Part shown: positions 38,354-42,788 of the stretch, one piece after another
Numbering within the stretch: the stretch's first letter is position 1
Layout: the number at the start of each line of letters is the position of its first letter
Source: a virus
Strand: one strand, 5' to 3'
IMG/VR virus record: IMGVR_UViG_3300021223_000019
Span: 1 to 43,172 of that record
DNA length: 43,172 bases
The notes under the pieces: model-generated
Database searches by the model: none
Seen by the model: the letters and a program-made list of their open reading frames with translations, nothing else
What the model was told of the DNA's origin: nothing
Program-made: the position numbers and the translations under genes

Positions 38354-39259
38354 TCAATTTAAATCCCTTTCTACGAGATATACATAACGATAGGGGGATG
38401 TGCTTTTCTTGATCGGCTGGAGACTAATGTCTGGCTTCATGGTGAACTGACTTTGAATTCCCGCGACAACAGCGCTTACCGTTGAAGTGGTTTCACTTAG
38501 TCCGAGTTCTTTTGTTCCTTTCCAAGCGGCAGCTGCTCGGGAAATGCCCTTTCCTATGTCGAAGTTAAAGGAGGCATTTAAAGTGGTTAGTTTTACTGGG
38601 AGCTGCCACTCTCGAGTAACTTTTAAGAGGTTGGAACAAGCTCCGTCAACTTCAATCAGTTTCTTGGTCAGCGCGTCTACGCTATCTCCGCTGCCTTGAA
38701 TTTCTTCGGCCAGAGCTTCAAAGTGAGACCTGAATACAAGTAGTTCTTCGGTTCGTTTTTGCTTGAACTCTAATATTTCGGCCAACGGTACATCCAATGA
38801 AGGGACGGGCAGCGCGTTGTATAGCTGAAACAGGGCTCCGTTTAGTACTGGGCTTGCACCCTCTTGGATGAGAGATGCGTTGTTGCTATTGCCTAAACTC
38901 CACGTTCCCGGTTCAGTGTTCTCGTAATGGGCGAGTGCCATTATGTAGCACTGCCTGTGCATGTCCATAACTCGACCACCTTTAGGGTCGGTGAAGTCAG
39001 GGCGCTGAAGTTTTTTAATGTCTATCAAATACTGTTCGTCAATTCCTGGGGGGAAATAGATGTGCCGGTTTGATGGCCATGCGAGTTGGTCCCAATATAA
39101 TAACGATGATCTTAAGTCTTGAGGGTCTAAGCGAGGATTTTGGATCTTCAGGCCTGAGCTGCTCGTCCTTGTCTGATTACTTAGGATTATTCCTCGAGGT
39201 TTTTTTGAGGCTTTTCCGTAAAGTGGATCTGTTTCTTTTCTTAACTTGGCTTGTCCCAA
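38354..39259 (-). CDS. Cargo protein of 301 residues (MGQAKLRK start, DUF6236-like)
   Basis: This soluble protein starts MGQAKLRKETDPLYGK, an N-terminal motif shared by several bacterial families. The start is TTG at 39259, fixed by that motif and a GGAGAGAAG upstream. The middle (SSLLYWDQLAWPSNRHIYF; AEILEFKQKRTEELLVFR) recalls DUF6236, which I assign only weakly. The long helical part ends in VDALTKKLIEVDGACSNLLK, and the C-terminus in YRYVYLVERDLN. It is AT-richer than phage core genes and stands alone. A defence or exclusion role is possible but unproven. Confidence 0.75.
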   Translation of the reverse strand: MGQAKLRKETDPLYGKASKKPRGIILSNQTRTSSSGLKIQNPRLDPQDLRSSLLYWDQLAWPSNRHIYFPPGIDEQYLIDIKKLQRPDFTDPKGGRVMDMHRQCYIMALAHYENTEPGTWSLGNSNNASLIQEGASPVLNGALFQLYNALPVPSLDVPLAEILEFKQKRTEELLVFRSHFEALAEEIQGSGDSVDALTKKLIEVDGACSNLLKVTREWQLPVKLTTLNASFNFDIGKGISRAAAAWKGTKELGLSETTSTVSAVVAGIQSQFTMKPDISLQPIKKSTSPYRYVYLVERDLN

Positions 39260-40092: not shown

Positions 40093-40815
40093 ATGGTAGG
40101 TGGCGTAAGGGTTGTATCTCATGATCGGGACGAAATAATCATTGGAGAATTTAGAGTTTTAGAGTTGGCTCTGTTGGTTGATGCAGTCGCCTCGCATTGT
40201 ATAGGTAATGTGCTCGGCTGGAGCGTTGCACCTGATAGTACTTATTTGACAAGTGATATGGTTTCAAATTTTCCTCATGATCATTCCTACGGTCTTATCT
40301 CCTGCCGAAAGTCCGCTGATAATAAAGTAGTGCGTGAGTGGGAAGTCATGGTTGAATATGAGTTGGACGATAAAAACCCCGAGAGAATTTTCAGCGTTCG
40401 GTATAAAACAACTAGGACGGGGTTTGCTGAAGAGAAGCGTGGCTTTAGAGTTTCGGGTGTTCGAATAATTTCCGAAGTTTCATCGCGGCAAATGTTAGAT
40501 GTTTTGAATTATTTCAGAGAGAGATTTCAGGCACTTGGCTCTGAGACTGGATTTTTCTCAAGCTGGTCAAATGCAGGGCTAGCAGTAATAGTGAGATGCG
40601 CTAACTGTTCTCATCATGTGTTAATACCTTCTAAAAAAATCCTGTCTGTATTTAAGTCCTACAGTCAGCCATCAGACGCAAATGAAAAACTAAAGTGCTC
40701 TAAATGTGGAGAGAGAGGGAAGGCACGGATTTGGCCGGTGATTCCAGGAGAGGTTTATCAGAGCTATCCGAGGATCCCCGATCCAAACGCAAGCAGCATT
40801 TTTGGTAAATGGTGA
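40093..40815 (+). CDS. Cargo protein of 240 residues with C-terminal zinc ribbon
   Basis: This protein is in AT-rich DNA. Its N-terminal 160 residues mix beta and helical elements (DEIIIGEFRVLELALLVDAV; KVVREWEVMVEYELDD). Residues from about 178 onwards have CANCSHH and CSKCGERG, a C4 zinc ribbon, and a proline-rich end (RIPDPNASSIFGKW). AAGGAG lies 6 bases before ATG. I do not recognise the family. The ribbon could bind nucleic acid. It stands alone between repeat copies B and C. Confidence 0.7.
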   Translation: MVGGVRVVSHDRDEIIIGEFRVLELALLVDAVASHCIGNVLGWSVAPDSTYLTSDMVSNFPHDHSYGLISCRKSADNKVVREWEVMVEYELDDKNPERIFSVRYKTTRTGFAEEKRGFRVSGVRIISEVSSRQMLDVLNYFRERFQALGSETGFFSSWSNAGLAVIVRCANCSHHVLIPSKKILSVFKSYSQPSDANEKLKCSKCGERGKARIWPVIPGEVYQSYPRIPDPNASSIFGKW

Positions 40816-41381: not shown

Positions 41382-41534
41382 CTACGGATTCTTAGGGGGA
41401 GGGGAAACAGGTTTACTTTGGCTTTGAGCCATAGGTTTAGGCTGATATCCATCCTGTGCGATCCCAGGTCTAGGGCCTGTTGGTTGGTAGCCATTGGTCT
41501 GCAGCTTCGGATCTTGCTTGTCAGTGGTGGCCAT
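41382..41534 (-). CDS. 50-residue proline-rich GYQP/PPPKNP protein (second paralogue)
   Basis: The product begins MATTDKQDPKLQTNGYQPTG and contains a second GYQP at about residues 29-32 and ends SPPPKNP. It is rich in Pro, Gln and Lys and has no hydrophobic segment, so it is probably disordered. GAGGA lies 8 bases before ATG 41534. It is the last gene of the three-gene operon, 15 bp after its 45-residue paralogue, with which it shares GYQP spacing and the identical six-residue end. Confidence 0.7.
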   Translation of the reverse strand: MATTDKQDPKLQTNGYQPTGPRPGIAQDGYQPKPMAQSQSKPVSPPPKNP

Positions 41535-41549
41535 TTCGCTTTTCCTCAA

Positions 41550-41687
41550 CTATGGGTTTTTTGGTGGAGGGGCTGGAGCCCTTTCGCTAGTGGGCGTTGG
41601 GGCGTACCCATTTTTGACACGGCTGGAGTCACCTTTGCCAGGTTGGTAGCCGAATTTCTCAGAACCATCATTTTTTTTGTTCGTCAT
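41550..41687 (-). CDS. 45-residue proline-rich GYQP/PPPKNP protein (first paralogue)
   Basis: The product begins MTNKKNDGSEKFGYQPGKGD, has GYAP at residues 27-30 and ends APPPKNP. AGGAG lies 7 bases before the ATG at 41687. The gene overlaps the end of the DUF6338 gene by 20 bp, which implies translational coupling. A paralogue follows directly. The two frames are short enough to be missed by standard gene callers, but both have strong ribosome sites and the same C-terminus. Confidence 0.72.
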   Translation of the reverse strand: MTNKKNDGSEKFGYQPGKGDSSRVKNGYAPTPTSERAPAPPPKNP

Positions 41688-42294
41688 TTTCACTCTCCTG
41701 TGGATCTTCCACATGAAACAGCTCAAGCGAAATTATCTCTTTTGCGAGGATGAGTATGCCAGCAGAATTCTCCCTCTGCCTCTCAAACCCGCAACCTTCG
41801 TTTAGCACCCAAGTCTGCTGTAGATAAATTTGCTCTGGCTCGGGGTTACTGGATGCAAAGGATTCCGGTCCATAATATCCACCGATTTTGCGGCCGTCAC
41901 TTAGCGTTGCCACGACCCAATAGCGAATTCGTTTGTTGAATACAAAATCCCAGGGCTTACCGGTTGGGTGTACGATTGAGCGCTGGAGAAGCTGAGTCTT
42001 CCTAAGCCATAAGAAAGCCCATGCCCATCCTATTGGAGCAACCAGCAGTACAGCAACATAGAAAAGTACGTACCAAACCGGGTGACTGGTCTTCAGGTCA
42101 AGTTGCTCCATCGCGTAAATAGGACCTATTAGCAGCGCATAATTAATGGAGCTATAGGCAACCGCATCGATTAGCTGCTGGGATGTGTCTTTGACTTGAG
42201 TCGGTTGTAGCAATGCATAGGTTTTCAGGCTTATGAAACCAGGCACCACAAATGCGATGAACAATACCAGCTTGTCTACTTCCCATATGTCCAT
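41668..42294 (-). CDS. DUF6338 membrane protein
   Basis: This 208-residue protein has three predicted membrane segments, at about residues 8-28 (LVLFIAFVVPGFISLKTYAL), 45-62 (AYSSINYALLIGPIYAM) and 73-97 (YVLFYVAVLLVAPIGWAWAF). A soluble domain follows, with HPTGKPWDFVFNKRIRYWVV, DGRKIGGYYGPESFASS and EQIYLQQTWVL, the DUF6338 signature. The tail is acidic/charged. I chose ATG 42294 (AGGA 8 bases upstream, typical MDIWEVDKL start) over 42333. It leads an operon with two small proline-rich genes. Function of the family is not known to me; a membrane-linked defence or exclusion role is speculation. Confidence 0.82.
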   Translation of the reverse strand: MDIWEVDKLVLFIAFVVPGFISLKTYALLQPTQVKDTSQQLIDAVAYSSINYALLIGPIYAMEQLDLKTSHPVWYVLFYVAVLLVAPIGWAWAFLWLRKTQLLQRSIVHPTGKPWDFVFNKRIRYWVVATLSDGRKIGGYYGPESFASSNPEPEQIYLQQTWVLNEGCGFERQRENSAGILILAKEIISLELFHVEDPQESENDEQKK

Positions 42295-42733: not shown

Positions 42734-42788
42734 GGATTGCAAATCCGCCTACGCCGGTTCGATTCCGACCTCGGCCTCCACTCTTAAA
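42734..42788. repeat. attR core (direct repeat with attL)
   Basis: Exact copy of 1513-1567: the 3' half of tRNA-Cys from the anticodon stem to CCA plus CTCTTAAA. It is the displaced original host 3' end and is not a complete tRNA, since the upstream bases do not continue the tRNA. Confidence 0.95.

Follow-up and report, generated by a model that had tools for sequence, protein, structure and literature searches.

An Sm-like beta domain preceded by three membrane helices is the arrangement found in the mechanosensitive channels of the MscS type. DUF6338 proteins are likewise predicted to place three helices before an Sm-like barrel, but they have no alpha-beta domain and no Pfam or PDB sequence match to these channels. 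The C-terminal domain of the models, a short helix followed by five bent strands, also resembles the Sm/LSm proteins (archaeal SmAP, spliceosomal Sm and Hfq), from which DUF6338 differs in being membrane-anchored and in lacking a significant LSM sequence match.

The only paper that we found naming DUF6338 describes an operon of P. stutzeri ATCC 14405 (Pstu14405_RS12030) that contains a DUF6338 gene together with SEP1, SEP2, and SEP5, proline-rich proteins of <50 aa that were seen by digest-free mass spectrometry in 44-114 spectra (PMC10433244). DUF6338 itself went undetected in that study, which did not extend to membrane fractions. Its authors considered the three small proteins to be unconserved outside the species and possibly the products of de novo genes, and also raised an antimicrobial role (PMC10433244). 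With one DUF6338 gene and three proline-rich proteins of <50 aa in a single operon, this arrangement resembles the loci analyzed here, and its frame pattern (one peptide in the DUF6338 frame, the others in another) is compatible with that of one relative, L021. We provisionally assign SEP1, SEP2, and SEP5 to the same family as the peptides described below by position, size, and composition, not by sequence.

The prophage locus

The window, meaning the whole 43,172-nt stretch of viral DNA that was analyzed, contains a prophage integrated at a tRNA-Cys gene (1486-1559). Repeat comparison identified a 55-bp direct repeat with one copy inside the tRNA gene (attL side, from 1513) and the other at 42734..42788 (attR side). 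The final cargo before attR consists of a DUF6338 gene and two small ORFs, all on the minus strand and about 440 bp from the repeat, in keeping with the initial annotation, which had placed them next to attR. The DUF6338 gene (41668..42294) encodes a 208-aa membrane protein that matches PF19865 with E=5.4e-43 and scores 147.4 bits against a curated cut-off of 26.5, making it a member of the family. The start of peptide 1 (45 aa, MTNKKNDGSEKFGYQPGKGDSSRVKNGYAPTPTSERAPAPPPKNP; 41550..41687) overlaps the end of this gene by 20 bp; peptide 2 (50 aa; 41382..41534) follows after a 15-bp gap, and a Shine-Dalgarno-like GGAG/GAGG precedes both small ORFs.

Each peptide contains two GYxP motifs (GY[QA]P; both GYQP in peptide 2) and ends in PPPKNP. 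Thus, the coordinates, spacing, ribosome sites, repeated elements, and identical ends initially reported for these 45- and 50-codon frames all stand. When the window peptides were shuffled 200,000 times, neither the GYxP pair nor the common PPPKNP end reappeared. Both ORF products are disordered, with 18% proline and a net charge of +4 for peptide 1, and 22% proline and +3 for peptide 2. The same end of the prophage carries two further cargo genes without assigned function: one for a DUF6236 protein (38354-39259, minus strand; Pfam E=3e-24) and one for a possible zinc-ribbon protein (40093-40815, plus strand).

For the 208-aa protein, Pfam searches up to E=10 returned DUF6338 as the sole match, with no LSM or Hfq and no MS_channel, and left the peptides unmatched. 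A search of PDB sequences recovered no relative of DUF6338, and a text search for the motifs GYQP and PPPKKP yielded nothing useful. Membership of a known defence family was rejected: the PADLOC (2023) models gave zero matches for all three window proteins, and neither PHROGs nor NCBIfam identified any of them.

Linkage, conservation, and selection of the peptides

To place the locus among its relatives, we collected DUF6338 genes found on plasmids and E. coli chromosomes, in a Klebsiella phage record, in IMG/VR, and in whole-genome sequences. Nearly all intact DUF6338 genes were followed directly by one to four short ORFs, the first of which begins between about 60 nt upstream and about 25 nt downstream of the DUF6338 stop. 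The initial reading of the peptides as twins therefore describes the window locus, which has two, but not the relatives, which carry 1 to 4. Under a strict criterion (a short GYxP...PPxK ORF immediately downstream), 53 of 98 non-redundant DUF6338 genes were positive compared to none of 1030 other ORFs, and the idea of a linked system thus survived the search proposed to refute it. A loose criterion (a short, proline-rich, disordered ORF downstream) was satisfied by 86/98 DUF6338 genes versus 67/1030 other ORFs. Eleven DUF6338 genes failed both; several of these (L134, L137, L138, L057, L052, L129, and L074 among them) have peptides that lie farther downstream or are of a variant type, or carry broken genes. 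At L129 (6000-6790), an intact DUF6338 gene is followed by a peptide frame that ends early after GWQPVNKGH, a natural peptide-less case.

A peptide profile built from an 18-sequence alignment (one residue in one sequence was entered as Q for K, with negligible effect) was searched against 299 Pseudomonas genomes. At E<=1e-3 it matched in exactly six, always directly downstream of DUF6338, and these six are the only genomes of the 299 with a close DUF6338. Three more matches fell at 0.0018-0.007.

For the clade of the window, we collected 91 unique peptides of 41-85 aa (median 52). Since the collection filter demanded both GYxP and a PP.K element, the following motif and tail counts are descriptive and do not constitute discovery: 190 GYxP or GWxP motifs compared to 3.4 expected by shuffling, and a PPK-x-x C-terminus in 82/91 peptides compared to 0.4. 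The common C-terminal tail is the best-conserved region, with proline occupying position -5 in 90/91 peptides and position -4 in 89/91, and lysine position -3 in 83/91.

Four peptide flavours track DUF6338 subclades. The first combines GYxP with PPPK[KNQ]P or SPPKER tails and occurs in Pseudomonas, Enterobacterales, Acinetobacter, and Fluviibacter, as well as in one Bacteroidota genome, there with PIPPGDE. The second pairs GYQP with NPxxPPKGGSGVP; the third, from a chromosomal clade of Pseudomonas, has no GYxP and ends in SAPPPPKR or SAPPPLKS; and the fourth belongs to a clade with two or three APPPAPPK peptides. On Actinomycetota plasmids, cognate peptides with GY[TR]P or PPKP elements (RGYTPKR, FGYRPKP, VYVPPKP) were present in three of four examined, the fourth, from Gordonia, having no clear peptide. 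The exact window-type tail is absent from alphaproteobacterial-type and actinobacterial peptides, and the widest common element across flavours is a poly-proline stretch near the C-terminus followed by lysine or arginine.

Selection was assessed from Nei-Gojobori counts pooled over sequence pairs without a tree, the first few codons of the peptides overlapping DUF6338. Omega was 0.09, 0.04, 0.07, and 0.10 in four peptide groups, indicating purifying selection, the absence of which would have spoken against the initial proposal. In two further groups, synonymous sites were saturated and pN was 0.21-0.28. The peptide 1 group, comprising ten related peptides, had a pooled pN of 0.207 versus a pS of 0.763.

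Together, these comparisons establish, with near certainty, that DUF6338 and its downstream peptides constitute a module, bearing out the view of a modular unit made of a membrane protein and short disordered paralogues through near-universal linkage, conservation, and purifying selection. By sequence comparison, the module is spread over several bacterial phyla (Pseudomonadota, Bacteroidota, and Actinomycetota), pointing to a widespread two-part system that was not previously described. This cross-phylum conservation contradicts the published view of the P. stutzeri peptides as species-restricted and possibly de novo, which it would correct. DUF6338, a widespread Pfam family of no known function, thereby gains an apparently obligate partner, and a conserved family of small proteins is revealed whose genes annotation often omits. 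Above the Pfam cut-off, a DUF6338 protein is also encoded by Haloferax volcanii, an archaeal control genome.

Predicted fold and proposed mode of action

Structures were predicted with AlphaFold from an alignment of 43 relatives. In eight rows with peptide and DUF6338 in one frame, translation was continued past the DUF6338 stop to tether the peptide, a modelling device that carries no claim of read-through. The DUF6338 portions of two models (relatives L088 and L017) were confident and agreed on the three helices proposed at the outset (residues 6-29, 37-64, and 72-97), followed by a short helix at 114-120 that corresponds to the conserved HPT..WDxxF and by strands at 125-194. In the window protein, the second helix is weakly hydrophobic, and an HPT..PWDFVF short helix and a five-strand Sm/LSm-like barrel are predicted at about residues 114-195. 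Foldseek searches of the PDB with both models returned top matches that were almost all Sm/LSm proteins, with one Hfq (probabilities near 1.0, E of 0.006-0.02, and a TM of about 0.67 by target), and the fold was recovered from two modelled proteins that are 40% identical to each other. The modelled architecture of DUF6338 is thus three N-terminal helices plus an Sm/LSm-type barrel. In the tethered L088 model, the PPPKKP tail block had a mean pLDDT of 64, compared to 42-47 for the GYxP stretch at the same row coverage; this modest rise was not repeated in L017 (47 versus 37-41).

On balance, we lean towards an obligate two-component module made of a membrane protein and disordered peptides that attach to it, most plausibly by their tails. 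DUF6338 would sit in the inner membrane through its three helices and present a small Sm/LSm-type barrel to the cytosol. The peptides of about 40-85 aa, which would be soluble, disordered, and made from the same operon, probably bind it. Their conserved C-terminal PP(P)K tail would be the likeliest part to dock on the barrel, a contact that we put forward tentatively, and the GYxP repeats could add a second linear motif, multivalent in nature, that contacts additional DUF6338 protomers or another protein. The complex may be poised at the membrane, with the peptides gating DUF6338 by restraining or arming it. In its boldest form, which we consider fairly improbable, this would be a membrane-anchored Sm-type ring that resembles the core of a mechanosensitive channel in its general outline and is plugged or cross-linked by the peptides, with the PPPK tails and the GYxP repeats making the contacts. 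Such peptide-gated membrane complexes would form a new class, occur in at least three phyla, and be put to anti-phage use in mobile elements.

A tight overlapping operon, small disordered partners, and frequent residence in mobile elements would also suit a toxin-antitoxin variant, with DUF6338 as a triggered, depolarising membrane toxin and the peptides as unstable antitoxins that mask the barrel. However, it would be unusual for the toxin gene to come first and for as many as four peptides to be conserved along with it, and one DUF6338 clade lies at a fixed chromosomal site; we regard this explanation as unlikely. It is quite improbable that the barrel binds RNA in the manner of Hfq/Sm proteins and that the peptides regulate such a membrane ribonucleoprotein. 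The Foldseek matches to Sm/LSm proteins and one Hfq fit this idea, but a Pfam LSM/Hfq sequence match is absent, and Sm-type barrels can be purely protein-binding modules.

The positive charge and proline content (18-22%) of the window peptides recall proline-rich, bacteriocin-like antimicrobials, the role raised by the P. stutzeri authors (PMC10433244), for which DUF6338 would serve as immunity or export protein. We find this very improbable, given that the loci read showed no leader, signal peptide, or conserved exporter gene and that the P. stutzeri peptides came from cell extracts. Proline stands directly before the stop in 67/91 peptides, and in E. coli a C-terminal proline can stall termination, according to the account of Hayes 2002 given in PMC7246954. 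The polyproline and Pro-stop end could accordingly act as a programmed ribosome stall instead of a binding tail, but other clades end in KR, KER, KS, or GS-rich sequences and the peptides lie downstream, not upstream, of the membrane gene, leaving a stall highly improbable. Lastly, chance, non-coding, or newly born ORFs, an idea encouraged by short length, low complexity, and the de novo suggestion in PMC10433244, are rejected for the family because of purifying selection, co-occurrence, linkage, and motif statistics. Under the favoured two-component module, the function of DUF6338 becomes directly testable through its peptides and their tails.

Genomic neighbourhood and a possible role in defence

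The module is carried as cargo near the ends of prophages and in their cargo slots. In E. coli, such a slot has a helicase gene on one side of the module and a VRR-NUC gene on the other. Thoeris-type TIR and caspase-like genes adjoin DUF6338 and peptide in a Tn7 element on a Proteus plasmid and on a Curtobacterium plasmid, and in Streptomyces DUF6338 is directly upstream of a CHAT gene (L002 3001-5221; L184 1005-3148; L185 2162-5309); most DUF6338 loci, in contrast to the Thoeris type, are without TIR or caspase neighbours. Matches to Thoeris ThsA/ThsB also appeared in the neighbour scan, not tied to a particular locus. Other neighbours include MzaA, HerA, and Tn7-like genes, and one locus is near a DUF4062 gene, a family to which a 2026 preprint ascribes antiphage NADase activity (PMC13174449). 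Across the prophage and chromosomal loci scanned there were several defence genes and no fixed partner, and a constant third gene of the module was rejected since no neighbour recurs throughout.

Placement in mobile elements next to defence genes suggests defence, and defence or exclusion against competing phages would be the likeliest use in such elements. The same downstream DNA was found in 14 of the 24 chromosomal Pseudomonas DUF6338 loci read; therefore, at least one clade represents a settled chromosomal locus. Phage exclusion is weakened because this clade sits at a chromosomal site that is conserved across many Pseudomonas species, and we view defence or exclusion by the mobile forms, proposed from position and neighbours, as plausible but less likely than not.

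In Acinetobacter ursingii (L004 1-4096), genes for a metallohydrolase, a Mov34/MPN/PAD-1 protein, DUF6338, and peptides follow one another in an operon-like order. A second Pseudomonas DUF6338 clade (clade II; L026-L049) was present in roughly one seventh of the sampled genomes; the flanking DNA of its loci is often common across species, and its peptides have SAPPPxK tails without GYxP.
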